NCBI RefSeq assembly: GCF_008087345.1
Contig: NZ_VHIB01000013.1
Location: 1 to 64,000, forward strand
DNA: 64,000 nucleotides
Source: Nocardioides caldifontis
GTDB taxonomy: Bacteria > Actinomycetota > Actinomycetes > Propionibacteriales > Nocardioidaceae
Reading direction: 5' to 3'
Position numbers and translations under genes: made by a program
Shown: one piece after another, positions 1 to 19,294 of the stretch
How positions within the stretch are numbered: the first letter of the stretch is position 1
How the letters are laid out: each line of letters opens with the position of its first letter
The notes under the pieces: generated by a model
The model's database searches: none
What the model saw: the letters and a program-made list of their open reading frames with translations, nothing else
What the model was told of the DNA's origin: nothing

Positions 1-218
1 GCCGTCACAATCAAGGCCTCGGAGAACCCGGCGACTACAGCGCCGGCGGCCATCCATGCCCCGGCCGCAGATCCGACCCGGACGTCGCACTCAACGACTC
101 AACCCACAGCCAAAAGAAAGTTCGAGGCTAACGGGCGACCCGCATATGGCGACGAAAGAGTATCAACGGCCAGACGCCATTTACGTTCAGTCACCGCACG
201 CAGACGTCGAGGCCATGA

Positions 219-1757
219 CTACCCCGCGAAGGTCTTCGCTACCTTGCGGGCGGAATATCCCTCCGACTCGAGCATCCGGAGAGTCGGGTAGTTCTCTTTG
301 TCCTGTCGCAGCCACTTCCTCACAGTCGTCCGCGTCTCTCCGGCCCCGAGCGCGGAGAGGGCGAGGATCCGCCGCGCCTGTGGCGTGCTTGCTCGTTTGA
401 TCCCATCGCGACACGCAGCTCGGCCCTCCGGCGGGTCCCAAGCTGTCAGGCGCTGGGCCGCGAAGGCGAGAAGCGGAACGCTCGTGTTCGAATCGCGAAC
501 TGCAGTCGAGCAGAAGTCCCGAAGCGCTCGACGCGGCCGCCTGGCCGTCGGGAACATGTGGCCGAATCGCGCAACCGACCATTCGTAGGTGGCCCAGTCA
601 CTCGTTGCATAGTCGAGGAACCAGTCCTGCAGACTGGACTGCGTGAAGACCTCCTTCATCAGCTCTGCCCAAGAATCCGCGACGTGCGGCATCCGCTCGG
701 CGGTCGCGGCGATGTCGTCGGCTCGGTAGTGGTGAGAGTGAGCTCGCATTCGTCGTGCGGCGAACTTGATCGAAGATCGCCCTGCGAGTTCCCTTTGGTC
801 GAGTAAGCGGTCGATGAGTTCCTCAAGCGGCTTGAAGTCCCTGCGTTTGTCGATCGCGTCATCAACGGCGCTGTGCTCGATGTCGAGAATCACATCGAGT
901 TGTGGACCCTCAAGAACCTCTGTCTTGGCGTCGTTCAAGTTCAGTCCGAGCGACCGGGCCACCGACTGCAACTCGATCTGGACTTGGCGAGCCGCCGAAG
1001 GCTCCGTCCCAAACCACAGAATGTCGTCCATCCATCGCGTGAAGCTCATCCGTGTGGTCCTGCTCTTGAAGAGTATGGGAATCGCGGTCGCGTGGCTGGC
1101 GAGTACGTCATCGAGGGGCGTGAGGTACATATTCGCGATCGCCGCCGACGCGAACGATCTCTGCGGCAAGCCCGAGCGGCCGGACACGTCGTCGAAGCCC
1201 TCGATAAGGTCGCATAGACGGCTCGTGACCTCGCCCTTCGGTGTCTTGTCCTGAATGGCCTCCTGTACCGGGCCAACCGGCAGGCTGGCGAAGAAGGAGA
1301 CAAGGTCGGTCCGCAGCGCCACGTCATATCGCCAGACGAGCTCCTGGAGGTGCCTCCGGTAGCCCTCCCACTGCTTCTTGTTCTGCGAGTAGACGCCGGT
1401 CTTCGGGTTCAGCGCGGGTAGACGCCATCCGTAGACGTTCGGATCGAGTCCGCCAATGAGCCGAACGCTGAGCCGGTCGACGAGTGCCTGATAGATCAGG
1501 CGGTCCATCAGGTCGAGGACGACAGCCGGCCGCGCCCCCCAGTTCTCTTTAGGTACCTCAATCAACGCTGACTGAAGGCTGCCAGACCCTGAACAGTGCT
1601 GGACCGCCAGCGACGGCTCCTTCTTGACTATGAAGTCGAGCTCGGGCCAGTCCCACGGGTCCCAATGCCAGTCGTTGGACCCCATCTCGAATCGAAGGTT
1701 CGCCGCTGCGCGACTCAGGTCCAACGCCTTCGCCCAGTCGATTGCCACGGCCGACAT
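219..1757 (-). CDS. RNA-directed DNA polymerase, Abi/UG-like, possible defence reverse transcriptase
   Basis: In the 512-residue reading the reverse transcriptase core is clear: motif A DLVSFF with Asp at about 151, motif B GLPQRSFAS at about 196-204, the catalytic RWMDD box with its two Asp at about 244-245, and LNLNDAKTE behind it. After the polymerase core there are about 230 mostly helical residues with no RNase H, endonuclease or maturase domain. This layout is known from Abi-type and other unknown-group reverse transcriptases that act in phage defence. No group II intron structure was seen, and I cannot assign a clade. Start: ATG at 1757 was chosen because residues before it are low-complexity. 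The frame stays open to 1958, and a TTG lies 8 codons upstream of the chosen ATG. Third-codon GC looks lower than in the core genes, which suggests transfer. The defence role is inferred from architecture and neighbours. Confidence 0.8.
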   Translation of the reverse strand: MSAVAIDWAKALDLSRAAANLRFEMGSNDWHWDPWDWPELDFIVKKEPSLAVQHCSGSGSLQSALIEVPKENWGARPAVVLDLMDRLIYQALVDRLSVRLIGGLDPNVYGWRLPALNPKTGVYSQNKKQWEGYRRHLQELVWRYDVALRTDLVSFFASLPVGPVQEAIQDKTPKGEVTSRLCDLIEGFDDVSGRSGLPQRSFASAAIANMYLTPLDDVLASHATAIPILFKSRTTRMSFTRWMDDILWFGTEPSAARQVQIELQSVARSLGLNLNDAKTEVLEGPQLDVILDIEHSAVDDAIDKRRDFKPLEELIDRLLDQRELAGRSSIKFAARRMRAHSHHYRADDIAATAERMPHVADSWAELMKEVFTQSSLQDWFLDYATSDWATYEWSVARFGHMFPTARRPRRALRDFCSTAVRDSNTSVPLLAFAAQRLTAWDPPEGRAACRDGIKRASTPQARRILALSALGAGETRTTVRKWLRQDKENYPTLRMLESEGYSARKVAKTFAG

Positions 1758-2143
1758 GGTGTCAGACGGAATCTTGCTCAACCGGGACGACCAGTTCAGC
1801 GCGTCGGTCGACTTCGGCTGACCCGCCAGGAGCGGTTCACCGCGGATGGCTGCGCCACCAAGACCCACTCGGTTCGACACGCGCTGACCACTAACGTCGT
1901 ACGCCGGCGTCCTCGTTGCGTGACGCGCAGATCCTCGCCAGCCACCCGACCCAGGCACAACTGAGCACTACGACAGAGAACGCGGCACGCACCCTCTCGC
2001 CACGGCCCACTTCCGGCCGACGAACGGATCGATGCCTGGCTGCACCGGTCCCGCCTCGCGTACTGGACGGCCTGACAACGATTCAGCTGCCCGCTCGTTC
2101 CGAGCGCGGCGCGCCGTGAGGCGAACGGGAGCTCGAAGCGCCC
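1758..2143. other. Leader region upstream of the reverse transcriptase
   Basis: No convincing gene is visible here, apart from a possible N-terminal extension of the reverse transcriptase up to 1958. One short perfect hairpin is present (CGCTCG, loop TTC, CGAGCG, 2092-2106). Several defence reverse transcriptases use a structured RNA encoded beside the gene. This space would be the place for one, but I see no strong structure by eye. Confidence 0.3.
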
Positions 2144-2848
2144 TCAGCCGCCGGCGGGCATGACCGATCGATCCTTCGGCCGCCGCCAGCCCTCAGGAAC
2201 CGGGTCGTCGACGATGCCCGCGTTTGGGGATGGCAGGTGCTGCTCTTCCATGCTCACCACGTAGCGGTGCCAACCGACCCCGGCTTGGAATCTCGCCAGC
2301 CAGATCTCCGTCGACCCTTGCCGATCTTGCGGGTCTCGCCGCGCCCGCCCACGGAACCAGATATCTGAAATCCCGTCCGGGAGGAGGAGGTCCTCAACGT
2401 GCTCGGCCGGACGGTCATCGTATGAATCGGAAAGCCGGTAGAAATAGTGGCCCACATCGTGCCCGCGCGCGAAGAGGAACAGGTGCCGCTCCTCTGCCGG
2501 CTGAGCCAGCAGCTTGTCGAGGTTCTGCCTGACCCACTCCGTCGTGAGCATCTCGGTGCACACCTGCGCGAGCTCTCCCAAGCGAGGGTCGAGGCACCCT
2601 TCCTCGCTCTGCGGTCGCCCCTCCCGCTTCGCAGCCGCCCATTCCTTCATCAGCTCTTTCGCTGGCGGGGACGTGATCTCGACAATGCCGCGCCGATCCG
2701 GGTCGTGGGGATACACCCAGGCGCCATCGGGCATCTTGTTGCCGGCACCGGCATCCGCGAGCCGGATGTCCACTCCGAGCACCTCTTCCATCGCAAGAAG
2801 TGCGATCTCCTCTTCTCGGCTTGCCTGCGCACCGGCTGCGTTGCTCAT
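2144..2848 (-). CDS. Hypothetical protein, possible PD-(D/E)XK-like fold
   Basis: A protein of 234 residues if translation begins at the ATG at 2848. The frame is open further upstream, but the extra residues are Arg/Ser-rich and do not look like protein. The N-terminal third contains an Asp-rich segment (PDGAW, then DPDRRGIVEIT) with the spacing of an Asp followed by a Glu-x-Thr/Lys strand, as found in PD-(D/E)XK nucleases. The rest is mixed, with a Trp-rich C-terminal part. I do not recognise a family. It lies between a zinc-motif protein and a reverse transcriptase on the same strand, so a defence role is possible. The nuclease idea is weak and rests on pattern alone. Confidence 0.55.
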   Translation of the reverse strand: MSNAAGAQASREEEIALLAMEEVLGVDIRLADAGAGNKMPDGAWVYPHDPDRRGIVEITSPPAKELMKEWAAAKREGRPQSEEGCLDPRLGELAQVCTEMLTTEWVRQNLDKLLAQPAEERHLFLFARGHDVGHYFYRLSDSYDDRPAEHVEDLLLPDGISDIWFRGRARRDPQDRQGSTEIWLARFQAGVGWHRYVVSMEEQHLPSPNAGIVDDPVPEGWRRPKDRSVMPAGG

Positions 2849-2912
2849 GACGTGGAGAGTAGTTGCCAAGCCGCGCCGGGTGGCGGGGGCGGCGCTGCGG
2901 CGACGTAGGTCG

Positions 2913-3761
2913 TCAAGGGATACGTCCGAACAGGACGACGGGCCCACCTTCCGTGTTGCTGTCGGCGAGCATCTCCACCCAATCGTCCTGCTTCGAGTGC
3001 ATCGGGTGAGCCAGCGCAGGAAACGTCCTCGTCAGGTGTCGCAGATCAACCGAGGTTCGGTCTGGCCCGTAGTGAACCCAATCGCTGGCGTCGACCAGCG
3101 GCTCAGTGACCTCCAAGCCGAGTTGCGGGTCGGCCGCGTCCTCGGCGGGCACCAGGCACCACACGAACGGGTGGAAAACGATGTCGCCGAAGCTGGAGTG
3201 TCGGACCCGCTCCACGAGGACCCGCATCGACCACACCCCGCTCACCAGCAGCCCGTGCCGCTCAAACCTCGGGTGCGTGCGACCGACCTTCAAGACGAGC
3301 CGATCGGGCCACCGCACCGGACCTTCACCGGACCGCTCATGCAGGAGGTCCTGCGCGAGGGCGGGGAACAGGAACCGCAGGCGAGGGTTGATGGCGAACA
3401 TCCCGAACAAGACGCAGCGGGCGACGAGACCCGGAGCGAACCGCGCTCCGGGGGCCTCACCTGGGATGACCGCCATCCGCAACGCTGCGGGAGTCGTTAG
3501 TCGTGCGACCTGATTGGCGAAGTCGGCGTATGCGCGGTCGTACGCACCTCCAGCCAGGTTGTTGCAGGACTCGCACAGGCCACGGACCCACATGCCACCC
3601 GGAGACCATCTACCCGGGCGACGCACACGGTTCTCGTCGACAAGATCCGAGGCTCTCTCCACGAGACCGGTGTTCCCGGCGACCTGAGGTGGCACGTGCG
3701 ATCTCGAGAGCTTCCGGAAGTCCCCACACAGCCCGCACGGTCGCGGCTCGGGCGATCTCAT
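2913..3761 (-). CDS. HNH-like zinc-binding protein of unknown function
   Basis: The 282-residue reading starts at the ATG at 3761, which puts the metal motif directly at the N terminus. Cys9-x2-Cys12, then SRSHVPP with His22, then RGLCESCNN with Cys63-x2-Cys66-Asn67. Paired CxxC motifs around a His, ending in Cys-Asn, resemble the treble-clef core of HNH endonucleases, although the usual second catalytic His is not obvious. The remainder, rich in Arg and Phe/Trp, has no domain I can name. It is the first of three same-strand genes ahead of the reverse transcriptase, 64 bp from the next. Nuclease activity is an inference. Confidence 0.6.
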   Translation of the reverse strand: MRSPEPRPCGLCGDFRKLSRSHVPPQVAGNTGLVERASDLVDENRVRRPGRWSPGGMWVRGLCESCNNLAGGAYDRAYADFANQVARLTTPAALRMAVIPGEAPGARFAPGLVARCVLFGMFAINPRLRFLFPALAQDLLHERSGEGPVRWPDRLVLKVGRTHPRFERHGLLVSGVWSMRVLVERVRHSSFGDIVFHPFVWCLVPAEDAADPQLGLEVTEPLVDASDWVHYGPDRTSVDLRHLTRTFPALAHPMHSKQDDWVEMLADSNTEGGPVVLFGRIP

Positions 3762-4320
3762 GGTCGACCCGATCAGCTCATGACCTGCCACAACACTCCT
3801 CAAACCCCAGCGGCGTTAGTACCCGGCACACCTGACCCTGCGGGCCGGCTGCTCCACCTGCGCCTTCGACAACCCGTCGCCGCGCGCCGACTGGTACGAC
3901 CGCGACGAACGGTACAACTCCCGAGATCGCCCTCACGGCTCGGCGTTAGTCTCACGCCCTCGAGTGCGGGATATGGCCGTGCGAGCTAGGTGTCCGACGG
4001 GTCAAAGCGCGCGCCGATCGTCTCCCAGGTCCGCTCGGATCCGTCCCCGAGTGGGGCGCGCGGCACCGCCGTCGTTAGTCGATGGAAACGGGCGACTGCC
4101 CCGCACGTGCCACATGCACGCTCGTGCGTCACGGCACTTTCATCCGAGTCGAGAATGCCCGGTTCACGGACTCACGGGGCAGGCGTAAGAAGCTGGCTTG
4201 AGAGAGACTCCAGAGCGGCGACCCGTTTACGCTGGTCAGACGCCCTGCAGGTGGGCGTGAGACGCCCTCGCGGAGGGCGCCAAACGCCCACCCATGCGGC
4301 GCCACGCGGGCGTGTGACGC
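3762..4320. other. Gene-poor stretch with a coding-like remnant
   Basis: No complete gene is visible. On the plus strand, about 3835-3935, one frame has high third-position GC and reads like protein (CSTCAFDNPSP followed by ADWYDRDERYN). It opens right after a stop codon and has no start nearby, so it may be the tail of a decayed gene. The rest looks non-coding. Confidence 0.3.
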
Positions 4321-4731
4321 CTAGGCCGACGGACTGTCCGGCCGCCGCTGCCGGACGGGCGGTGGGCGCTGGATCAGCTCCCCGTGATGCGGGCAGGGGG
4401 CGCCGACGTACCCGAGGCCGCCGACAACAGCGTGTCGCGGCACGACCAAGCACCGCGAACCGGACTCCCTCGATAGGAATCCCCGGGTGACGGCTCCACG
4501 GATCGCGCGTTGTACCGAGCCCTTCTCGAGTGGACATACCTCCCCGGTCGCCAGATCCACCGAGCCCAGCAGCCGCCCGATCTCGCCGGCGGCAAACGGC
4601 GCATGCCCGTTCGCCGCGTGACGTCCCAAGGCCAGGGCTGCAACACGGAACCAATAGTCGAACTGGGAGTCGGCTGCTCGCTCACGCCACGGCGCTTGAT
4701 AATGCCGAGCCCAACTTTGGATGGCGGGCAT
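4321..4731 (-). CDS. Small winged-helix-like protein of an integrative element
   Basis: A protein of 136 residues from the ATG at 4731. Its middle part (FAAGEIGRLLGS, then GEVCPLEKGSVQRAIRGAVTRGFL) reads as a helix-turn-helix or winged-helix segment, followed by a conserved-looking strand (RCLVVPRHAV) and a Gly-rich end with a CPHHG motif. From memory, proteins with this pattern are common in actinobacterial integrated elements, but no defined role is known to me. It is transcribed away from the recombinase pair and could regulate it or act in replication of an element. The function is not assigned. Confidence 0.6.
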   Translation of the reverse strand: MPAIQSWARHYQAPWRERAADSQFDYWFRVAALALGRHAANGHAPFAAGEIGRLLGSVDLATGEVCPLEKGSVQRAIRGAVTRGFLSRESGSRCLVVPRHAVVGGLGYVGAPCPHHGELIQRPPPVRQRRPDSPSA

Positions 4732-4966
4732 CAGGCAGCCCCCGCGTCGGCCAACGGCGGCAGGCAGCGGTGTACCCCCGCGCCTGCCCACGAAAGATCA
4801 TCCATGCTTGCGCACGGTCGGGAACCCCAGACGGGAAGCATGGTCGACCACGGCGACTACGACTGGCCTGCGGCCCGTCTCGTCAGAGCTTGTCCCGCCC
4901 TCCATCAATGGGAGGGTATTGCGCCCCTGATCACGCTCCGGACCGTCCCGATTCTCGCTCAACGTG

Positions 4967-5036
4967 GGCGCGAAGGGCACGGGAAGATGTATTCCCTTGC
5001 CCTTCGAAATCAGCCGGATCTTTCCGGCGCGAAGGG
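4967..5036. repeat. Hairpin and 11-bp direct repeats upstream of the first recombinase
   Basis: GGCGCGAAGGG occurs at 4967-4977 and again at 5026-5036. The first copy runs into a 15-bp inverted repeat (4971-4985 with 4992-5006, 14 of 15 positions paired, 6-nt loop), so a third copy of CGAAGGG is present in inverted orientation. The block ends 16 bp before the recombinase start. It could be a recombinase or regulator binding site, part of an attachment site, or a transcript hairpin. The sequence alone does not decide. Confidence 0.55.
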
Positions 5037-5052
5037 ATCTACAGTGCAGTAC

Positions 5053-6336
5053 ATGAGCGCCCTCGGCGCACCCGCCATCCCCAGCACGGACCGGGCCGAC
5101 TACCCCGGCCCGGAGTCGGCGCCGGACCTAGGAACCGATACAGGTGACGGGATCAGCCCGCCGGTGGGCGCCTTCCAAGCTCTCCTCGCTGACGCTAGGC
5201 GTAGGCGCGAACGCGATGCCGAACTGACCGAACGCACGAGCGACTCATCCGGCTCGGAGGTGGAGTGGTGCGAGCCAGACCCGCAGGCGCTGACCCGGCT
5301 CCCGACATGGGAGCACCCGATCACGCGCACCGTAGAGCGGCACGCGGGCAAAAACCAGATCGAGAGCGCTCTGCGGCGTGCCTACGCCTTCTTCCGTGGT
5401 ATCGATCCGGGCCAGGCGAGTTGGACCCACGTACTCGAGTACCCGTGGCATCAGATCACACCCGAGCAGGCGGCTAGTTACCATCGGCACGTTCGCCGGC
5501 GCTACTCGAACCAGGGAAGCCGCAACAACAACGTCCACGCGCTCCGGGCGGTACTGCTCGACTGCTATCGCGCCCGGACGATCAGCGCACTTCGTCACGA
5601 CCGGCTGACCGACGAGCTCACCACGGTCGCCCACGGACGGTCGCGCCGGCGGCGGCGCCTATCCGTCGACGAGTTCGAGCGCCTCATCACCGCTGCCGAG
5701 ACGACGGGCAACGCGTGGGCACGCGCCCGCAACACCGCCATCATTGCGACCTTCCGAACCACGGGGATTCGAGTCAGCGAGTTGGTTGGACTTGATCTCG
5801 CCGACTGGGACCAGGACCAGGACACGCTATTTCTGGGAAAGACCAAGAACCTTCGACCCCACACGGTGTTTGTCCACCCCGAGGCCAAGCCCTATCTGCT
5901 CCGATGGCTCACGCTTCGCGGGGGCCAGCCGGGCCCGCTCTTTATGAGCAGCCGCAAGAAGCGGCCCCTTCTGGAGCGCCGGCTGCACCCGAAGGCAGTC
6001 AACGGCATGGTCACCCGTCGCTCAGCGGACGCCGGCATTCCGCATCTGACCTGCCACGACTTCCGCCGCAACTTCGCTAGCGACCTCTTGAACGAGTTCG
6101 ACCCCGTTCTGGTCAGCCATTTGCTCAACCACAAGTCGCTCGCCAGCACGATCATCTACGACGTGCGGGGTGAAGAAATGCAGCGGTCGGCCGTTTCCAC
6201 GCTGGCCATGCCCGGACTGGACAGGATCACCCCGGGCAGTGACCCAAGCCCCGGAGGGGACACCCATGCACTTCACCCTGCCCTCGGGTCTAGCCCCAGG
6301 CGAACCGGCCACGGCGCCGAAGGTGGGGCGGCATGA
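5053..6336 (+). CDS. Tyrosine recombinase/integrase (first of a pair)
   Basis: A protein of 427 residues from the ATG at 5053. The C-terminal catalytic domain (about 200-380) carries the full tyrosine recombinase set: Arg240 in TTGIRVSEL, His335-x2-Arg338 in CHDFRRNF, His360 in LLNHKS and nucleophile Tyr369 in IIYD. The N-terminal part (about 85-190) fits the SAM-like core-binding domain. The frame is open upstream, and an ATG at 4987 lies inside the loop of a hairpin; I prefer 5053 because the preceding residues are not protein-like. The stop overlaps the start of the second recombinase (ATGA), so the two are probably co-translated, as in paired or triple recombinase modules of mobile elements. 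Intact. Confidence 0.9.
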   Translation: MSALGAPAIPSTDRADYPGPESAPDLGTDTGDGISPPVGAFQALLADARRRRERDAELTERTSDSSGSEVEWCEPDPQALTRLPTWEHPITRTVERHAGKNQIESALRRAYAFFRGIDPGQASWTHVLEYPWHQITPEQAASYHRHVRRRYSNQGSRNNNVHALRAVLLDCYRARTISALRHDRLTDELTTVAHGRSRRRRRLSVDEFERLITAAETTGNAWARARNTAIIATFRTTGIRVSELVGLDLADWDQDQDTLFLGKTKNLRPHTVFVHPEAKPYLLRWLTLRGGQPGPLFMSSRKKRPLLERRLHPKAVNGMVTRRSADAGIPHLTCHDFRRNFASDLLNEFDPVLVSHLLNHKSLASTIIYDVRGEEMQRSAVSTLAMPGLDRITPGSDPSPGGDTHALHPALGSSPRRTGHGAEGGAA

Positions 6337-7404
6337 CGGACGACACGGTAGGTCGCGCGGGGGGCGAGGGTCTCCACGCCGTGACGAAAGAGGAGGCGAC
6401 TCTCCTAGAGGGCCGCGCGGCGGCCCTCACGAGATTCCGGAACACATGGCCCAACCGTTCGTCAACGCAGCGGGCGATGCTGGGGTCCCTGTATCGCATC
6501 ACAACGGCGGCCAGTAACGGGGAGTATGACCCGACCACCTACCCGTGGGAACTGGTCGTCGATGGTCACGTGGCCAGCCAGATGTGTTCCCTGGAGGCAG
6601 CCAGGGGCTATGCGCACAGCACTGTTCAGAAGGACGCCTCCGCCTTGCGCACCATGCTCGCCTGCTGCCACCAAGCTGGTCTCCTCACCCGGACGCAATG
6701 GAAGTCGGCCGCCGCCTTCACCACAACCGCAGGCGAGCAGCGTCCACCGGCAGGCCACCACCTGAGTGAGGAGGACGTCGCGGTCATCATCCGCGCGTGC
6801 GAGCGCGGGTCTGGAGGGGTGAACACGCGCATCCGCGACGTGGCACTGCTGTTGGCACTGGCGACTTCCGGCGCCCGCCGCGACGAGGTGCACCACGTCC
6901 GCATCGAGGATGTTGAGTTGGACCAAGACCGCTTCTGGCTACCGGTGACCAAGAGCGGCGTAGGTCGCTACGCGTGGCTTCACCCCACAGCAGTCACGGC
7001 GCTTCAACGATGGCTAGAGGTCCGCGGATCCGCGCCGGGAGGGCTGTTCGTACCACTCTCAAGAACTGTGAACCGCCCCGGGTTCAGTGGAGGCTGGGTT
7101 CTACCATCTGAACGGTCTCAGACGGCTCGGTCGTGCGGTAGTGGTTGGCTTCGGCCTCGGCCGGGGGGATGTTTCCGAGCGCCTCGAAGAGGCGTCGGTT
7201 GTTGAACCAGTCGACCCACTCGAGGGTGGCGATCTCGACCGCGTCGGGACCCCGCCAGGGGCCTTGGCGGCGGATCAATTCGGTCTTGAACAGCCCGATC
7301 ACCGACTCGGCCATCGCGTTGTCGTAGGAGTCGCCGACCGACCCGATCGAGGGCTTCGCGCCGGCCTCGGCGAGCCGCTCGGTGTAGCGGATCGAGGTGT
7401 ACTG

Positions 7405-9870
<2,466 letters not shown>

Positions 9871-10414
9871 GAGCGCCACCCTTTCGTGGGATCAGCGCCT
9901 CCACCAGACCCGGGACGGTTCACTGGGCGTCCGATGGTCGAACATGGGCACCTCAGCGCCCATCAGATCTGGAAAACGGTGTCCGGGCGCGCCAGAGAAG
10001 CGGGATTCGAAAACATCGCGCCCCACGACATGCGCCGTTTTGTGATCAGCACACTTCTCGAGACCACCGACCCGGTCATGGTGGCGCAGATCGTCGGCCA
10101 CAAGCGTCCGACCACCACGGCGAAGTACGACCGCCGGCCAGCGCGTCGACAGCGTCAGGCGGTGGCCACGATCAGCATGCCGAGGCTTGCGAATCTGCGC
10201 CCAGATCTGATCCGGTGACGCAGCGAGTCGACCACCGCAATAGCTCCTCTGATCTCGCGCTCTCAGCTGATCATGTCGGTGTCGTTGGGGCCGATCCGCG
10301 TTCGTGGCGAATCGGCACCCACCGCATCGGCTGGGAACGTGACGGACCCCGAACCGAGCAGCCCGCGTTCAACCAACCGCCGACTGCCATTGTCGAACCG
10401 TCGGATGACGCCGA

Positions 10415-10678
10415 CTAGATGACTGCCTTGACGGCGCGGGCGTCCCCATCCCGGCCAATCACAAGCCGAGTGCCGTCCGCGTGATCGAGGTATTCCCGCA
10501 CCACAGCTAGGTCCAGTCCCGTAACCGAGGCGATGTCCTCATCCCGGATGGCAACGACCGACTCGCCGTAGCCTGGAGGCGGGGCGAGTTCCTCGTTAGC
10601 ACCGGACTGTGCCTCCTGCCACAACCGACGGATGGTGTTATAGAGGTCAGCTGTACTCGCATCCAGGTCGCTCGTCAT
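10415..10678 (-). CDS. Small hypothetical protein
   Basis: An 87-residue, mostly helical protein with an acidic N-terminal half. The segment IRDEDIASVTGLDLAVVREYLDHADGTRLVIG reads like a helix-turn-helix followed by a short beta hairpin, the pattern of a small winged-helix domain. Upstream of the ATG at 10678 there is a weak purine stretch (GAGGG, 12 nt away). It lies between the broken recombinase and another small gene, so it may belong to the same mobile element. No family is recognised. Confidence 0.5.
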   Translation of the reverse strand: MTSDLDASTADLYNTIRRLWQEAQSGANEELAPPPGYGESVVAIRDEDIASVTGLDLAVVREYLDHADGTRLVIGRDGDARAVKAVI

Positions 10679-11035
10679 GTGTTCTCTGTACCCTCAGCTC
10701 CACGTCCAAGCCGGTACGAGCGATCGATGCTGTCGCCGGGAGCGCGCGTGGCGGCCAGATGGAGACGTTCTTCAGAGCGCCGGGCCGGGGGTGTCACCAC
10801 TGAGAGGCCCGGTGTGACACGGCGGGGCCTCTGGCCGCCAGCCGCCCTTCTCGCCGTCGTAAGCTAGAGCGCTCAGACCGGCGCGGCTCCGTGGGCCGCG
10901 ATGTGGGACGAGATGGCCCGCCGGCCTCGAACCAGGCCGTGGCTCCGACAGGGGCACCGTCTACCACTTCCATCGCCCGGCCGGGGATGGCGGTGGTGAG
11001 CGGATTCTGTCGTGGGCGCGCGACACACTCAGCCC
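10679..11035. other. Intergenic stretch with one hairpin
   Basis: No gene is supported. An 8-bp perfect inverted repeat (AGAGGCCC at 10803-10810 with GGGCCTCT at 10825-10832, 14-nt loop) could form a hairpin. There is no T-rich run behind it on either strand, so it is only a weak terminator candidate. Confidence 0.35.
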
Positions 11036-11512
11036 GTGAATCCACCACGCATACGAGTCCCAGCCCAGCAGCGAGCGCGCACCATCCGCGCCATGCTCAC
11101 CGACTCGCGCCACGGCGTTCTCGGCCCGACCGAGGGGCAGAAACGCGCGCTGGCGGCCATGCGGAAAGAAGCATCGTCATCGCCGATCGAGCTCAGCCCG
11201 GGCGTCGCACTAGCCGCGCCGGATCCGGCTGCGCGGGCGCGGGCGGCGATGGACATCGTCCGACGTCCGAGAATCGACCCCGACGACGCCAGTTTGTGGT
11301 CATTGGCTCTGGCGGCAGCCCGAATCGGCGAGACCGACCCTGTCGCCGCGACGGCCCAGGTTGAGGCGCTCGCCGTGTTGGCTGAACGACACCGGCTCCC
11401 CCCCGCCGTGTTCGAGTGCCTTGCGGCCATCCAGCGCGGCTCAGTAACACCCGATCAAGCCGACGACTTGGCATTCCTCGATCAGTGCCGCCCCGACCCC
11501 GAAGTCTCATAG
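11036..11512 (+). CDS. Hypothetical helical protein
   Basis: A protein of 158 residues from the GTG at 11036; the frame is also open upstream to 11012. It is Ala-rich and helical, with no signal peptide or membrane segment. The second half has two regular amphipathic helices (LWSLALAAARIG, then AATAQVEALAVLAERHRLPPAVFECLAAIQRG). Codon use is ordinary for a high-GC genome but less biased than in the restriction-modification genes next to it. I do not recognise a family. It is convergent with the type I restriction operon. Confidence 0.5.
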   Translation: MNPPRIRVPAQQRARTIRAMLTDSRHGVLGPTEGQKRALAAMRKEASSSPIELSPGVALAAPDPAARARAAMDIVRRPRIDPDDASLWSLALAAARIGETDPVAATAQVEALAVLAERHRLPPAVFECLAAIQRGSVTPDQADDLAFLDQCRPDPEVS

Positions 11513-11667
11513 GGCAGGGCGTCCGTTTGCGCTTCGCGGCGGCAACCGCCTACGCGCAGCGACTGCACGAGCGTGGAACGTCCTCCAGGTCAGGCGCGTG
11601 GAGGGCGGTCGTGCGATGCCCAGATCGCACCTCGCAGCGAACAGTGATCTACGAGCCACGATGGGTG

Positions 11668-14600
11668 TCAGGCGGCGTCGGTCGGGAGGGCGTGTCCCTT
11701 AACGTCGTTGAGGATGCCGACGATGACATCGACGTCGGTCTCGGGGAACACGAAGTCCGGGCCAGTCGGCGCGTGGTCGGTGTAGGGGGACTCGTACAAC
11801 CGGGCGGGCTCGACGACGCCGTTGGACGCGAGCTCGTCGATGATCAGGTTGATGAACCGGATCTGCTCGACGGTTGCCTTGCCTTCGTCGAGATAGGCGG
11901 CGAACTCCTCCGCAGCCGCGGTGCGGTCCAGGCCGACCAGGCTGCGGATGAACAGTCCGAGGCCGCCGTGCTGCTCGGAGGCCCAAGTGATGTCAACCTT
12001 CTCCCCGGCGCCGCTGGCCAGGAGCATCTCCTCCAGCGCCGCTAGGTCGTCGGGGGTGAGCTGCTTGTTGCGGCGCAGCCGGTGGAGTGCGACGTGGTCC
12101 TCGTGCTCTCGGAGGTAGGCGGCGGCCTTGGCGCGGAAGCGTTCCATGTTGGTGCCCGGGGTGGTGCCGGGGAGGTCGACGTAGACCTCTTCGCCGAGTT
12201 CGTCCTTGAAGTCGGTGTAGACGGTCTTCTTCTGGGCCTTGTCGAGGAACTGGACCAGGCCGCGGAGCCGGAGGCGGACGAGCTCGAGCATCGGCACGTT
12301 GACGTCGACCCACCACTCGTCGCTGGCAACTTCCTCGATCCGCTCGGCCTGCGCGGCGACCGAGGGGATGGCGGTCTTGGCGAGGAGTCCGTGGGCGATG
12401 TCCTGGATCGTGGCGCGGAGCCGTTCGGCGGCGACGGCGTCGCCTTCGAGTTGGGCGAGCTGGCGGCGGAGGATGAGGACGTCGAACCGTTTGGCGGTCT
12501 CCTCCTCGTCCTTGACCGTCGAGGGCAGTCCGGCGAGGTGTTCGAGCACCTCGCCGGCGTCCTTCGGGGTAAGTGCGCCCCACGCGTTCCAGTCGGCGTA
12601 CTTCTCTACCCACCGCCGGTGGGGGCGGACGAGGAAGTTGTTGATGTTCATGCCGGCGACGTACTCGTGCAGTGCCTTGGCGGCCGATGTCCGCAGCTCT
12701 GGCTCCTGCCCGGCGTGGTCGAGTGCGCCGACGAGGGCGAGGCGGGTCTCGAAGAGGCGCTGGTTCAGGGACTTCTGGTTCGAGCCCTCGGTGCCGGGGA
12801 GGTCCTGGCTGAAGTACTCCAGGTTGCCGCAGAAGTCGAAGACCAGGAAGTTTTTCTTGTCCTCCCCGGGGCCGAAGAGGTCCGGGCACAGGCGGGTGCC
12901 GCGGCCGATCATCTGCCAGAACTTCGACTTCGACCGGACCATCTTAAAGAAGACCAGGTTCGCGACCTCGGGGACGTCGATGCCGGTGTCGAGCATGTCG
13001 ACGCTGATCGCGATGTGCGGGTCCTTCTCGGGTTGGGAGAAGTCGTCGATCAGGCTCTGGGCGTACGACATGCCGTGGGTGATGACGCGGGCGAAGTGGC
13101 CGGCCTTGTCGGGGTAGTTCGCGTCGAAGCGGTCGGCGATGAACTGGGCGTGGTCGCGGTTCTTGGCGAAGATGATGGTCTTCGCGAGCCGGTCACCGCC
13201 GGCGACCTTGTAGCCCTTGTCCATGAGCGTGGCGAGGACCTTGTCGACGGTGTCCTCGTTGAACAGGAATCGGTTGAGCTCTTCGGAGTCCACGGCGTCC
13301 GGTGGGCCGTCCTCGCCCCAGTCGAGGCTGTCCCACTCGTCCTTCTCCTCCTCCGACAGGTCGGCGTACTTGATGCCGTGGCGGAGGAACTTGGTGCCGA
13401 CCGAGCCCCCGACCGGGGGCACGAGGTAGCCCTCGTTGACGGCCTCGTCCAGGCTGTAAGCGTCGGTGGGGACGCCGTCCTCGAGGTGGAAGAGCCGGTA
13501 GGTGTTGTGGTCGACCTCGTCCTTCGGGGTCGCGGTGAGGCCGAGGAGGAGGGAGTCGAACCAGGCGAAGATCGCGCCGTACTTCTGGTAGACCGAGCGG
13601 TGGGCCTCGTCGATGACGATGAGGTCGAAGTACCCGGGGCCGAACTTCCGCAGCCCGGAGTCGGTGTCGTTGATGAGGTTCATCATCGTCGGGTACGTCG
13701 AGACGTAGACCCGGCCGTCGGCGACCTTGTCGGTGAGGAGGTTGACCGTGGTCGCGGTAGGCAGGTGGGTCTTGAACGCGTTGGTGGCCTGGGTGACCAG
13801 GGCGGTCCGGTCGGCCAGGAATAGCACGCGCTTGACCCAGTTGGCCTTCATCAGCTGGTCGACCAGCGCGATGGTCATCCGGGTCTTGCCCGATCCGGTT
13901 GCCATCACCAGCAGCGCTTCGCGCTGCTTCTTCATCAACGCCTCGTCGACCGCCCGGATGGCGCGCTGCTGGTAGTGCCGGCCGGCGATGTCGGTGTCGA
14001 TGCCGACCTGGTCCAGCGGCAGGCGGGTCTGGCGGCGCTGGATCAGCAGCTCGAGCTCGTCGCGGGTGTAGAACCCCTGGATCTCCCGGGGCGGGTATCC
14101 GGCGGCGTCGTCCCAGATCCAGTGCTGGTAGCCGTTGGTGTAGAAGATCACCGGCCGCCGGCCGTACTGCGTCTCGAGGCAGTCGGCGTACAGCTTGGTC
14201 TGCTGCTGACCGACCTGCGCGGAACGGGTGGTGCGCTTGGCCTCGACCACCGCCAGCGGCAGCCCGTCGGCACCCCACAGGACGTAGTCGACGAACCCCT
14301 TGCCCTCGTTGTTGGGCATGCCGGTGACCTCGTACTCCCGGTCCCGGGAATCGGTCAGCGGCCACCCGGCCTCGCCGAGGAGGACGTCGATGAACAGATC
14401 GCGGGTCTCGGCCTCGGAGTAGTCATGGTCATCGACCTTCGTCTTCGCCGCCTGCGCCGCCGCGATCTGCTCGCGCAACTGCGCGATCTCGGCGTCCTTG
14501 GCGGCGGCGAGCTCTTCCTTCTCCGACAGCGCCTTGGCCAGGGCTTCATCCTGGGCCTTGAACTTCGCCGCGAGCTTCACCAGATCCGCCTGCGACAACG

Positions 14601-15033
14601 GCTGCGCCTTCGCCGCCAACGCGGGGTCGAACTGCGCCTTGGTCGGCACCGCTCCGGGGTCTGCCGAGTGATTGAAGGCGGCCCACACCATCACGTGATG
14701 CAGCTCCCGAAGCACCTGCAGCCCGGCCTGGGCCGGGATCGGCCGTGCCTCGTGGACGGCGGTGTTACCCAGCTTGCGAATCAGGTTCAGCTTCTGGTTG
14801 ATCCCGTTCCCCGTCTTGGCCTTGAACTCCGCGGCGTTGATCCGCGCCGCCAGGTCAGACTGGTACGGCTCCGGGAGGCGAAGGACGTCGTACAGGTGAC
14901 GCACGAGCTCCTCGACCGCGCGGCGGCTGTAGAAGCACGCCGACCGCGGGTCGGACGACAGGTAGGACTCCGCCCGGGCGCAGTCCGCGTGCACCGTCGG
15001 CAGCGTGTCCTTGGTGAACCCAAAGTTGCTCAT
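11668..15033 (-). CDS. hsdR: Type I restriction endonuclease subunit R
   Basis: The motor and nuclease subunit of a type I restriction-modification complex, 1121 residues from the ATG at 15033. In order: an N-terminal helical domain of DUF4145 type (about 10-130), a coiled coil (about 150-200), the nuclease core with Asp249 in DYVLW and Glu264-Ala-Lys in VVEAKR, Walker A ATGSGKT (about 378-384), the IDEAH box, LTATP, and motif VI MIGRGTRL. The C-terminal third matches the EcoEI-type R subunit end. Length and motif set fit a complete, active protein. It is the last gene of the operon, 10 bp after the NucS-like gene. Confidence 0.96.
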   Translation of the reverse strand: MSNFGFTKDTLPTVHADCARAESYLSSDPRSACFYSRRAVEELVRHLYDVLRLPEPYQSDLAARINAAEFKAKTGNGINQKLNLIRKLGNTAVHEARPIPAQAGLQVLRELHHVMVWAAFNHSADPGAVPTKAQFDPALAAKAQPLSQADLVKLAAKFKAQDEALAKALSEKEELAAAKDAEIAQLREQIAAAQAAKTKVDDHDYSEAETRDLFIDVLLGEAGWPLTDSRDREYEVTGMPNNEGKGFVDYVLWGADGLPLAVVEAKRTTRSAQVGQQQTKLYADCLETQYGRRPVIFYTNGYQHWIWDDAAGYPPREIQGFYTRDELELLIQRRQTRLPLDQVGIDTDIAGRHYQQRAIRAVDEALMKKQREALLVMATGSGKTRMTIALVDQLMKANWVKRVLFLADRTALVTQATNAFKTHLPTATTVNLLTDKVADGRVYVSTYPTMMNLINDTDSGLRKFGPGYFDLIVIDEAHRSVYQKYGAIFAWFDSLLLGLTATPKDEVDHNTYRLFHLEDGVPTDAYSLDEAVNEGYLVPPVGGSVGTKFLRHGIKYADLSEEEKDEWDSLDWGEDGPPDAVDSEELNRFLFNEDTVDKVLATLMDKGYKVAGGDRLAKTIIFAKNRDHAQFIADRFDANYPDKAGHFARVITHGMSYAQSLIDDFSQPEKDPHIAISVDMLDTGIDVPEVANLVFFKMVRSKSKFWQMIGRGTRLCPDLFGPGEDKKNFLVFDFCGNLEYFSQDLPGTEGSNQKSLNQRLFETRLALVGALDHAGQEPELRTSAAKALHEYVAGMNINNFLVRPHRRWVEKYADWNAWGALTPKDAGEVLEHLAGLPSTVKDEEETAKRFDVLILRRQLAQLEGDAVAAERLRATIQDIAHGLLAKTAIPSVAAQAERIEEVASDEWWVDVNVPMLELVRLRLRGLVQFLDKAQKKTVYTDFKDELGEEVYVDLPGTTPGTNMERFRAKAAAYLREHEDHVALHRLRRNKQLTPDDLAALEEMLLASGAGEKVDITWASEQHGGLGLFIRSLVGLDRTAAAEEFAAYLDEGKATVEQIRFINLIIDELASNGVVEPARLYESPYTDHAPTGPDFVFPETDVDVIVGILNDVKGHALPTDAA

Positions 15034-15043
15034 GGCTGGTCGG

Positions 15044-16123
15044 TCACTCGTCCTTGTCGATACCGAAGTGATCGGCCAGACGTCCCAATGTGAACTCCTG
15101 GCGGAGCTTGCAGGCGCTGTGAGTGCTCGCGAACAACCCCTTCTCCCAGAATCCCTCGTCGAGCGGTCGAGCTTCGATCCACTCGACGGGGACAATCCAC
15201 TCGGCCTTGTCATCCTCCGTGTCCGGGTCACTGGGGTAGTTGCCCTGAAGGGTCTGTGCTGCCAAGGGGGTCCATGTCCCGCCAATGCGCACCTCGGCGT
15301 TCTCGAACCGGGTCGCAGGCGCTAGGACGCGGCCGACCGCCACGTAGCGCATCGGCGGCACGTTGACCCAGACCCGGGCGTCCTTGGGAAGGGAACGCAT
15401 GCCGTGCGACCAGACCTTGCCGCCCCCGCCCGCTACGAAGCCGAACTTGAGCGCGTCGTCCCACACGCGCTCGCCACCGCCGAAGGAGATGTACCAGTCC
15501 TTGCCGTTCCAGGCAGCGCGCTTGCTCTTCTTGCTTCCGGTGGTCGCGGTCGGCGTCTCGTCATCCGAAGCGGTCAGCCAGGAGCGCGCCAGGTAGCGAC
15601 GCCCGTCGTCCTCGAGATAGGAGAAGAAGACCGCGTTGATCGGGACGCCGAAGTCGCGCAGGTAGCTGACGATGCGCTCCGAGCTGGCGTCGAGCTCAGC
15701 AGCCACGATGGTGAGGTTGAGGTCGCCGTTGAGCTCGTCGGGCGGGGCGCTGCCGAAGACGTCTTCGAACGCGGCCTCGAACGGCTGGTCGAGGTGCTTG
15801 GTAGCGATGTCGATGATGTCGTCGCGGGACAGCGTTGAGGCCCACGAGCCGTAATCGAGCACTTGGGCGACAACCTCGCGTGGGGTCTTGTCGCGCTTGA
15901 GTTCCAGCAGGTTGAGATCGCCCTCGGCGTCGATCGCCAGGAGGTCCAGGCGTGGACCGTACGGCGTGATCACCTCGCTGCCGATGACCAGCAGGCGGTC
16001 GCCGAGCAGCGATGGATCGCGCTTGAGGAACTCGTGCAGGTCCTTCTCAGCGGGGAGCACGGATGTCGCCAGCGGCTTCGGCTCGTCGCCGTCGATCCGC
16101 CACATCCTCATCTCAACCGGCAC
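15044..16123 (-). CDS. NucS/DUF91-like PD-(D/E)XK nuclease embedded in a type I operon
   Basis: A protein of 359 residues. The N-terminal half contains a PD-(D/E)XK core: Asp in PYGPRLDLLAIDAEG and Glu-Leu-Lys in LNLLELKRDK, followed by helices (EVVAQVLDYGSW). This resembles the C-terminal nuclease domain of NucS and DUF91 proteins. The C-terminal half is Trp/Gly-rich (WYISFGGGERVWDDALKFGF) and may bind a nucleic acid or a modified base; that is a guess. The GTG at 16123 has a ribosome-binding site (GGGGAG, 9 nt away) overlapping the end of hsdS. It is not one of the standard type I subunits. Its position between hsdS and hsdR points to an accessory function in the same defence system. Confidence 0.8.
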   Translation of the reverse strand: MPVEMRMWRIDGDEPKPLATSVLPAEKDLHEFLKRDPSLLGDRLLVIGSEVITPYGPRLDLLAIDAEGDLNLLELKRDKTPREVVAQVLDYGSWASTLSRDDIIDIATKHLDQPFEAAFEDVFGSAPPDELNGDLNLTIVAAELDASSERIVSYLRDFGVPINAVFFSYLEDDGRRYLARSWLTASDDETPTATTGSKKSKRAAWNGKDWYISFGGGERVWDDALKFGFVAGGGGKVWSHGMRSLPKDARVWVNVPPMRYVAVGRVLAPATRFENAEVRIGGTWTPLAAQTLQGNYPSDPDTEDDKAEWIVPVEWIEARPLDEGFWEKGLFASTHSACKLRQEFTLGRLADHFGIDKDE

Positions 16124-16126
16124 CGA

Positions 16127-17263
16127 TCACAGCTCCCCTCGGAAGGCGCGGGACTGGAGGGAGGCAAAGAGAGTGTCATCACGCCTGGCGGCCTCACGTT
16201 GAGCGGCCCGCTGGCGGTTGGTGAGCTCCACCCGATCGGCGAACTCTCGCTGCAAGGACAGCTCGGGCACAGCGACCGACGCAGCCTTCAACGATCCCAC
16301 GTTGAAGTGTTGCTGGATCTGTCCCCGGGCCTCTCCGCTAACCATTCGCTTGCCCGTTTCGGAGTTCAGAAGTGCTTCGAGATAGACCGGCAGAGCTACA
16401 TCCGTGTTCGGAGTGGCCACGATGAGGTCGATGGCATTCGCGCCATCAAGTTCCGGTGGAACGATCGCAGTGGTGCCGGCCTTGCCTGTGCGGGCGATGA
16501 CCAGGTCACCGGCGCGCAGTCGAGACTTCGCTAATGGCCCGTTGTTGGACGCTTCGGAGAAGTAGACGAGGTCTTCCAAAACGATCCTGCCTGGTTTCAC
16601 GTTCAGCGTCCGCAGCGCCGGCACACCCGACTCGACGTAGTGGCTCGCGGGCTTGATCACCACGCCGACAGTTACGCGGTGACAGGTTGAAGCAAACGGC
16701 AGCCGATCGCGCTCCATGTCGAACATCTGGTGGAACACTGCATCCACGAGGGAGTCGAGGTGGGCGAGGACCTGGCGGCGCTTGGCGCGGAGGGCGTCGG
16801 CGTGGTCGAGGATTGCGGCGATGCGGCGCTGCTCGGGGAGGGGCGGGAGGGGAATCGGAAACGTCGCCAACACGGTCGGGCTGAGCCGAGGCAGGTTCGC
16901 GCCAGATGTTCGGGACGCGGCGAAGTCGACCATGCTCGGCTGCGCGAGGTAGTGGGCGAGGTAGTTCCGGTCGAGATCCGGGCCCGGGCGAATCGGGAGG
17001 ATGTCGGTGCTGCACACCCCGGCGAAATCAGGCCGGCTGATCTTGCCGAGGTTCGGACGCAGCTTCCCGAAGAGGACGTGCTCCTCCGTGAACGCGAACT
17101 TCGTGCTTGCGAGTTCCGCTCCGCCGACAGTGTCGCGGCCAATGATGCGCCCGCCACGTTCGATGTGCTCGAGGCCGAGGTAGAGGGTCTCCGGTGGGAC
17201 CGAGCTGGGATCCACTCCCTTGCGGTCGATCGTGGCGACGGAGCCAAGCTCGACTGTCTTCAC
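16127..17263 (-). CDS. hsdS: Type I restriction-modification specificity subunit S
   Basis: The DNA recognition subunit, 378 residues. It has the usual two target-recognition domains with conserved helical spacers: the first ends in PIPLPPLPEQRRIAAILDHADALRAKRRQ (about 135-165), the second runs to a similar helix near the C terminus (LQREFADRVELTNRQRAAQ). The variable domains determine the two half-sites of the recognition sequence, which cannot be read from the sequence. The start is a GTG that overlaps the hsdM stop (GTGA), so translation is coupled. Full length for the family, no frameshift. Confidence 0.95.
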   Translation of the reverse strand: MKTVELGSVATIDRKGVDPSSVPPETLYLGLEHIERGGRIIGRDTVGGAELASTKFAFTEEHVLFGKLRPNLGKISRPDFAGVCSTDILPIRPGPDLDRNYLAHYLAQPSMVDFAASRTSGANLPRLSPTVLATFPIPLPPLPEQRRIAAILDHADALRAKRRQVLAHLDSLVDAVFHQMFDMERDRLPFASTCHRVTVGVVIKPASHYVESGVPALRTLNVKPGRIVLEDLVYFSEASNNGPLAKSRLRAGDLVIARTGKAGTTAIVPPELDGANAIDLIVATPNTDVALPVYLEALLNSETGKRMVSGEARGQIQQHFNVGSLKAASVAVPELSLQREFADRVELTNRQRAAQREAARRDDTLFASLQSRAFRGEL

Positions 17264-18717
17264 GCCAGCATCGCCTTCAGTTCGGCGAGCCCCTTGGCGA
17301 TCTCGTCTTCAAGCGACTCGATGTCCGCGATGATCTCCAGCGGCGGGCGGTGCTCGACGTCGTCGTACTGGACCTCCTTGTAGCGGTTGAGGGAGAGGTC
17401 GTAGCCCTGGGCGGCGATGTCGGCCTTGGGGACGAGGAAGGACTGTTCGGTGCGTGTCCGGTCAGCCTCGGCGGCGAGGTTCTGCCACCGGGTGAGGACG
17501 TCGGGGAGGTCGTTGGCCTCGACCGGGTTGCGCTTGTCGTCGAGGGAGAATCCGTCGGCCTGGACGTCGTAGAACCAGACGTTGTCGGTGCCGCCGGAGT
17601 TGGTCTTGGTGAAGAACAGGATGGCGGTCGAGACGCCGGCGTACGGCTTGAAGACACCGGAGGGGAGCTTGACGACGGCGTCGAGCTTCTGGTCCTCGAC
17701 GAGGATCTTCCGCAGGTCCTTGTGGGCCTTGGACGACCCGAACAGCACACCGTCCGGGACGATGACCGCGGCCCGACCGCCGGGCTTGAGGAGCTTGAGG
17801 AAGAGGGCCAGGAAGAGCAGCTCGGTCTTCTTGGTCTTGACGAGCCGCTGTAGGTCCTTGGCGGTGGACTCGTAGTCCAGCGACCCCGCGAAGGGCGGGT
17901 TGGCCAGGATGAGCGTGTACTTCTCCGCGTCCTCGCTGGCTCCCTCGGAGAGGGAGTCCCGGTAGCGGATGTCTGGGGCTTCGATGCCGTGAAGCAACAT
18001 GTTCATGCTGCCGATGCGGAGCATGGTGGAGTCGAAGTCGTAGCCATGGAACATCGACCGGTGGAAGTGCTGCCGCTGGGTGGCGTCGGTCAGCGCCTGC
18101 GGATGGGTGTCGCGGATGTACTCGCTGGCCGCGACCAGGAACCCCGCGGTGCCGCAGGCGGGGTCGCAGATCTCGTCGGTCGGGTGCGGGGCGGTCATCT
18201 TGACCATCAGCTCGATGATGTGGCGCGGGGTGCGGAACTGGCCGTTGACGCCGGCGGCGGCGATCTTGGAGAGCAGGTACTCGTACAGGTCGCCATTGGT
18301 GTCGCGGTCGGCCATGGGGATGTCGTCGAGCATGTCGACGACCTTGCTCAGCAGCGCCGGGGTCGGGATGGTGAACCGGGCGTCCTTCATGTGGTCGCTG
18401 TAGGTCGACTCGTCGCCACCGGCCTTGCGGAGGAACGGGAAGACCTCATCGGCCACGACCCGGTGCATGACGGCGGGGTCGTCGTTCTTGAACCGGCTCC
18501 AGCGCAGGTGCTCCTGCCCGGGGAGGAAGACCGGGTTCACGATGGCGCCGCCGGTGCGGCGGGCCTTGTTCTCGGCCAGGGTCTGCAGGTCGTCGAGGCG
18601 GCGGATGAACAGCAGGTAGGTGATCTGCTCGATGACCTCGAGCGGGTTGGAGATGCCGCCGGACCAGAACGCGTCCCAGACGCGGTCGATCTTGCTCTTC
18701 AGTTCTCCGGTGATCAC
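17260..18717 (-). CDS. hsdM: Type I restriction-modification DNA methyltransferase subunit M
   Basis: The adenine-N6 methyltransferase subunit, 485 residues. The N-terminal HsdM_N helical domain (ELKSKIDRVWDAFW, then ITYLLFIRRLDD) is followed by the SAM-binding motif I DPACGTAGFL (about 187-196) and the catalytic motif IV NPPF (about 275). The GTG at 18717 was chosen because an AGGG lies 8 nt upstream and the protein begins with the conserved N-terminal helix; codons further upstream do not look coding. First gene of the operon hsdM-hsdS-nuclease-hsdR. Intact. Confidence 0.96.
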   Translation of the reverse strand: MITGELKSKIDRVWDAFWSGGISNPLEVIEQITYLLFIRRLDDLQTLAENKARRTGGAIVNPVFLPGQEHLRWSRFKNDDPAVMHRVVADEVFPFLRKAGGDESTYSDHMKDARFTIPTPALLSKVVDMLDDIPMADRDTNGDLYEYLLSKIAAAGVNGQFRTPRHIIELMVKMTAPHPTDEICDPACGTAGFLVAASEYIRDTHPQALTDATQRQHFHRSMFHGYDFDSTMLRIGSMNMLLHGIEAPDIRYRDSLSEGASEDAEKYTLILANPPFAGSLDYESTAKDLQRLVKTKKTELLFLALFLKLLKPGGRAAVIVPDGVLFGSSKAHKDLRKILVEDQKLDAVVKLPSGVFKPYAGVSTAILFFTKTNSGGTDNVWFYDVQADGFSLDDKRNPVEANDLPDVLTRWQNLAAEADRTRTEQSFLVPKADIAAQGYDLSLNRYKEVQYDDVEHRPPLEIIADIESLEDEIAKGLAELKAMLA

Positions 18718-19294
18718 GGGCTTTACCCTAGTGAGCCGCGGGCGTTCGGGGGCCAAGATGGCGTACCTCCTGCTGGACGGTCCTTCCGGCCAGCCGAGGA
18801 GGCTCTCGGGAACATCCGACAGAACGCGCGTCGACACTAATCAACGGCCCAAGCTCCGGGGCCTGGTGCTGGCTCCAGAGGCCGTCGTCCAGTTCCCCGC
18901 CAAGCTCGGCTGCGGTCGTGCGGGGACCCAGCAGAGCGCCAGTCCAGGCACGAGACACGCAAACTTCCGGCGGCAAGACGCGACAGCGTCTTGGGCGCCC
19001 GACGCTGAGACGCGGCGCATGCGTGTGCCGCGCGCCGCGTCCCCCCCAGATCCCCCCATCTGAGCGCCCTATCAACGCCTACTGGACGCCTAGTACTGCG
19101 AGGCGTATCGTCGTCATACCGGCTCTGACCTGCGGAAACGCGTCAGCGAGATTGGTGGAGGTCGTGTATCCGCCTGTACTACGACATCTGACGGTGGCCC
19201 GGGGCTGAACCCCGTGACCCGTGGTCGGCCCCCGACCTGGAAGAGCAGTCTTCCGGCGTCGGGGGCCGATCGGCGTCCTGAGGGCTCGTCTCGC
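18718..19294. other. Divergent intergenic region
   Basis: This stretch separates the restriction operon (minus) from the MerR-controlled exporter (plus). I see no gene with convincing codon bias and no tRNA. Some short inverted repeats occur (for example CCCCCGAC near 19227 with GTCGGGGG near 19257), which could end transcripts or form part of the exporter's upstream region. It is the likely border between the accessory left part and the more ordinary right part. Confidence 0.4.

Follow-up and report, generated by a model that had tools for sequence, protein, structure and literature searches.

A UG33-class reverse transcriptase gene and its neighbours in an accessory region of Nocardioides caldifontis

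Three genes standing together at the edge of a Nocardioides caldifontis contig, encoding a reverse transcriptase (RT) and two proteins with nuclease-like motifs, raise the question of whether they form a single new defence system. The window, by which we mean the whole stretch of DNA analysed, comprises 64,000 nucleotides (NCBI RefSeq assembly GCF_008087345.1, contig NZ_VHIB01000013.1, positions 1 to 64,000). As the original prediction had claimed, three same-strand open frames are present at 219-3761 on the minus strand, and the two genes upstream of the RT are referred to here by their products, proteins A and B:

219-1757, minus strand: RT, a UG33-class UG/Abi (DRT) reverse transcriptase, 512 aa from its ATG, identified by PADLOC, RVT_1, motifs and mostly synonymous change
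1758-1814, minus strand: short stretch upstream of the RT that can still be aligned with Pimelobacter (58 columns, 74 % identity)
2144-2848, minus strand: protein B, 234 aa, a possible D...E-x-T nuclease by its motif, with no family match
2913-3761, minus strand: protein A, 282 aa, an HNH-like CxxC...H...CxxCN protein, identified by its motifs and with plasmid relatives

The gap between A and B is 64 bp, that between B and the RT 386 bp, and the RT frame can be extended via a GTG to position 1958. Since the three-gene stretch sits at the first bases of the contig, only 218 bp are visible 3′ of the RT gene. On the other side lies a 156-aa open frame (4321-4791) with no credible match in Pfam, PADLOC or NCBIfam.

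The surroundings are those of an accessory region, as had been proposed, with recombinase genes, a transposase and type I restriction-modification genes close by. The tyrosine recombinase gene at 6333-7205 covers only positions 3-89 of 172 in the Phage_integrase profile and terminates at transposase genes. There, an HTH_38 transposase (7412-8845) seems to interrupt a second transposase (7084-7431 and 8861-9541), which from reading its translations we take to be IS3-like, giving nested insertions. The type I restriction-modification genes, with HsdM, HsdS and HsdR domains, occupy 11668-18837; an extra 359-aa frame between HsdS and HsdR (15044-16123), which overlaps the HsdR frame as listed, has a weak match to NucS_C (20.7 bits against a cut-off of 24).

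The RT matches the PADLOC profile RT_UG33 (PDLC03772) with 634.6 bits (E-value 3.1e-191) over profile positions 1-489 of 490, about five times the score of the next class (UG23, 123.5 bits; then UG21, 111.8, and UG9_large, 101.7). Being a full-length match to this profile, it can be placed in UG33, a catalogued UG/Abi (DRT) class, and the expectation of a UG/Abi-type enzyme is thus confirmed; no feature was found that distinguishes it from the class. Its match to RVT_1, the sole Pfam family that it matches, exceeds the Pfam cut-off, and no other RVT_1 match occurs in the genome. The catalytic motifs are intact, as had been noted, with GLPQ at residues 196-199 and WMDD at 242-245, both invariant across three aligned homologues. 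Two other kinds of RT were considered and rejected, the group II intron enzymes (52.7 bits with group_II_RT_mat, whose cut-off is 300) and the retron enzymes (retron_St85, 24.3 bits against a cut-off of 235). Searches of solved structures with an RT profile gave weak matches to a reverse transcriptase (8ub7, E-value 1.5e-4) and to an RNA-directed DNA polymerase (8bgj, E-value 3e-4). The predicted helical C-terminal extension is weakly supported by an AlphaFold model that is poor overall (two-row alignment, mean pLDDT 41), in which helices span residues 427-498 and ten-residue pLDDT means are 61-80 over residues 431-500.

UG33 is already catalogued in PADLOC, under DRT, and the RT of the window adds a new member to it. 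Searches of the literature, which did not take in the class-defining paper (doi 10.1093/nar/gkac467), found no study of UG33, and the word is absent from the main texts of PMC8934634, PMC12632851 and PMC13174585.

Among the sampled genomes UG33 is a rare class. In samples that overlap with one another, the RT_UG33 profile finds 8 of 396 genomes of the phylum at E ≤1e-20, that of the window included (the other seven score 74-106 bits against 635); an RT alignment at the same threshold finds 1 of 394 genomes of the class, which is the window's own; and the RT protein at E ≤1e-30 finds 2 of 245 genomes of the family, again counting the window's own. A pattern-based scan of contigs, which detects close relatives only, located an RT in Pimelobacter simplex 3E that is 92-93 % identical to that of the window; the second genome of the family sample, with an RT of 92 % identity, is almost certainly this same one, as the coordinates on the contig coincide. 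Five plasmid records of Mycobacterium intracellulare carry an RT with 54.5 % identity, and ten further plasmid records match 42-51 % of the query, with identities of 23-28 %. No match to the RT was found among phages at E 1e-5, and in viral contigs no relative of any of the three proteins could be confirmed, the scans there being pattern-based and the negatives correspondingly weak.

Comparison with Pimelobacter by blastn yields a single block of similarity, at window positions 219-1814, so that the DNA common to the two genomes stops at the RT stop codon on one side and roughly 57 bp before the ATG on the other. Within the gene 172 of 1539 bases differ, 134 of them at third codon positions, and the changed codons comprise 120 that are synonymous and 40 that are not, a pattern that indicates selection on the RT protein. 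Of the family-matched genes around the Pimelobacter RT, UPF0158 and PRiA4_ORF3 are nearest on the upstream side and an HNH_2 / SAVED-HNH-like gene on the downstream side; NERD, nucleotidyltransferase, Nmad3 and FRG genes lie farther away. On the strength of the frames scanned in this locus (2131-17279; ten of the 18 picked against Pfam, eight of those ten against PADLOC), the neighbourhood looks like a defence-related island. On the M. intracellulare plasmid, in the one record opened of the five, the RT gene has a recombinase gene on one side and a hypothetical gene on the other.

Neither A nor B was detected by tblastn at the Pimelobacter or the M. intracellulare RT locus, nor in the whole genome that carries the 92 % RT, nor in the M. 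intracellulare plasmid record (the plasmid, as distinct from the host chromosome). The B search had an internal positive, since the genome holding the one relative of B was matched; the A search gave no positive in its three genomes or records, and its sensitivity rests on the same query having matched in genomes of the phylum. The two genes upstream of the RT in the window were thus not seen with other copies of UG33. We do not take an RT plus an HNH gene as a recurring pattern, because what follows the Pimelobacter RT is an HNH_2 gene, a kind of HNH distinct from A, which matches no such family, and because the opened Mycobacterium plasmid locus has no HNH-annotated gene.

The motif described for protein A is present (C9-x2-C12, H22, C63-x2-C66-N67). 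Six homologues all retain C63, C66 and N67, and H22 is found in all four rows that cover it, the other two starting later as annotated. The label HNH-like refers to the resemblance of these residues to the HNH motif. A matches no family in Pfam, PADLOC or NCBIfam at E-values up to 1, curated HNH families included; it has a weak match to a PHROG of unknown function (E-value 0.01), no credible match among solved structures and none among phages at E 1e-5. Counting the window's own genome, A occurs in 4 of 396 genomes of the phylum and in 2 of 58 relatives, the second at an E-value of 7e-4. Its relatives are also found on 12 plasmid records (five of Streptomyces, five of Rhodococcus and two others), seven of which were opened, five for tblastn and two judged by annotation. 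At eight loci searched by tblastn (the five plasmid loci and three genome loci that match the N-terminal part of A only) B was found at none and there was no credible match to the RT (one hit of 28 residues with an E-value of 0.64); at the two further plasmid loci an RT is absent from the annotation. A is thus probably a stand-alone HNH-like protein, a neighbour in the island and not a partner of the RT.

The residues of the possible nuclease core proposed for protein B are present, D41 followed by E57-I-T59, and the only relative found keeps the D and has EVT. B matches no family in Pfam, PADLOC or NCBIfam at E-values up to 1 or in PHROGs up to 0.1, has no credible match among solved structures, and finds nothing among phages at E 0.01 or plasmids at E 1e-5; a structure model from the single sequence, made with a possible PD-(D/E)xK-like fold in view, is poor (mean pLDDT 38). 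With the window's own genome counted, B is present in 2 of 396 genomes of the phylum, from which its sole relative comes, and in 1 of 58 relatives; in the genus of that relative it is present in 1 of 2 genomes, namely that same genome. The relative aligns in two frames, with a frame shift after residue 59, and as two stops were also counted in the match range it is either frame-broken or mis-sequenced; the aligned pieces, unlike the match range, contain no stop. Upstream of it lie two HsdM genes and one HsdS gene, with a 1017-residue frame between, and neither RT nor A was found by tblastn in the 17 kb fetched. From this sample of one, B looks like another defence-island passenger, and in the window this possible nuclease is probably a neighbour of the RT in the island and not its partner.

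How, then, are the three genes to be read? The proposal of a three-gene module, in which the RT would make DNA and the nuclease-like proteins would act as effectors or regulators, draws on their contiguity on one strand, the 64 bp gap between A and B and a similar base composition by codon position. However, A and B are absent with both the 92 % and the 54 % RT, so that neither accompanies any of the two independent RT relatives; the tested loci that hold a relative of A or of B lack the RT, the block of DNA common with Pimelobacter consists of the RT only, and 386 bp intervene between B and the RT. As far as the RT, A and B loci reach, homologues of the three genes are rarely adjacent, and because RT relatives stand elsewhere without these neighbours it is improbable that the three make up a single new defence system; we regard the module as very unlikely. 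A linkage specific to this lineage may remain, since only two independent RT relatives were available, but that a UG33 RT has here taken on two nuclease-like proteins, from families not yet described, as its effectors, to make a new composite DRT system, strikes us as highly improbable. A and B could instead be a two-gene nuclease unit of their own beside an independent RT, being on one strand, 64 bp apart and similar in composition; yet no examined locus except the window has both, B is missing from all eight loci with A relatives, and the genome with the B relative gave no match to A (in a search with no internal positive), which leaves this an unlikely arrangement. The reading that we prefer, and consider reasonably probable, is that the RT is a solitary, horizontally moved UG33 UG/Abi (DRT) defence gene, with A and B as further accessory genes carried by the same island.

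A separate question is whether the RT copies an RNA. PMC12632851 and PMC13174585 describe the class 2 enzymes studied so far as copying a non-coding RNA, which serves as their template, and UG33 might likewise copy a nearby RNA into repetitive DNA. The RT of the window has its core in common with the class 2 systems DRT2, DRT9 and DRT10, which consist of an RT and a non-coding RNA, although it scores only 23 bits against the Drt2 cut-off of 390 and differs in that no conserved RNA element was detected beside it. The 218 nt downstream of the RT (positions 1-218, on the RT strand) are mildly unusual in folding better than shuffled sequences (z -2.0, 8 of 200 shuffles as good), but the best similarity to Pimelobacter on this side is an unconvincing 27 bp (E-value 0.07), and no flank is conserved beyond about 57 bp upstream. 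Upstream, neither the 386-nt stretch of the window (z 0.97) nor the stretch of the same length in Pimelobacter (z -0.27) folds better than shuffles. Rfam gives no match in window positions 1-4500 at E-values up to 1, and for this, and for want of a conserved flank, a known RNA partner was rejected. A terminator-like site lies downstream of the RT at 181-165, one of two such sites in 1-4500, where 2.4 would be expected. It may be that a template RNA has diverged, is short or lies within the open frame; on balance we think a class 2-like mode of action rather doubtful.

Since the RT matches only RVT_1 in Pfam and lacks a conserved RNA-sized flank, a solitary enzyme like those of class 1 is our first choice. 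PMC12632851, PMC13174585 and PMC13275509 report that class 1 UG/Abi enzymes make DNA that is template-free and protein-primed, and that class 3 enzymes, which bear nitrilase or phosphohydrolase domains, also synthesize DNA without a template. The likeness to the class 1 enzymes AbiK, AbiA and AbiP2 lies in the RT being apparently a solitary gene; similarity in the RT domain is 29, 29 and 30 bits respectively, far below that to UG33. Under our preferred reading of a solitary defence gene, phage infection would trigger the RT to make DNA, in a synthesis that may need no template and be primed by protein, like that of the class 1 (Abi) enzymes, and the DNA, or an adduct of the RT and DNA, would halt growth of the infected cell in abortive infection. 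Template-free priming seems likelier than the copying of a dedicated RNA, since no flank of a size to encode one is conserved alongside the gene. That the RT serves in defence, is primed by protein, uses no template RNA and acts by abortive infection is what we infer.

The tempting reading of A, B and the RT as an operon is corrected by these comparisons, and the RT of the window enlarges a rare class of reverse transcriptases for which our literature searches found no study. Because the part in common with a near-identical copy is the RT alone, it is a clean single-gene candidate for the mechanism of UG33.
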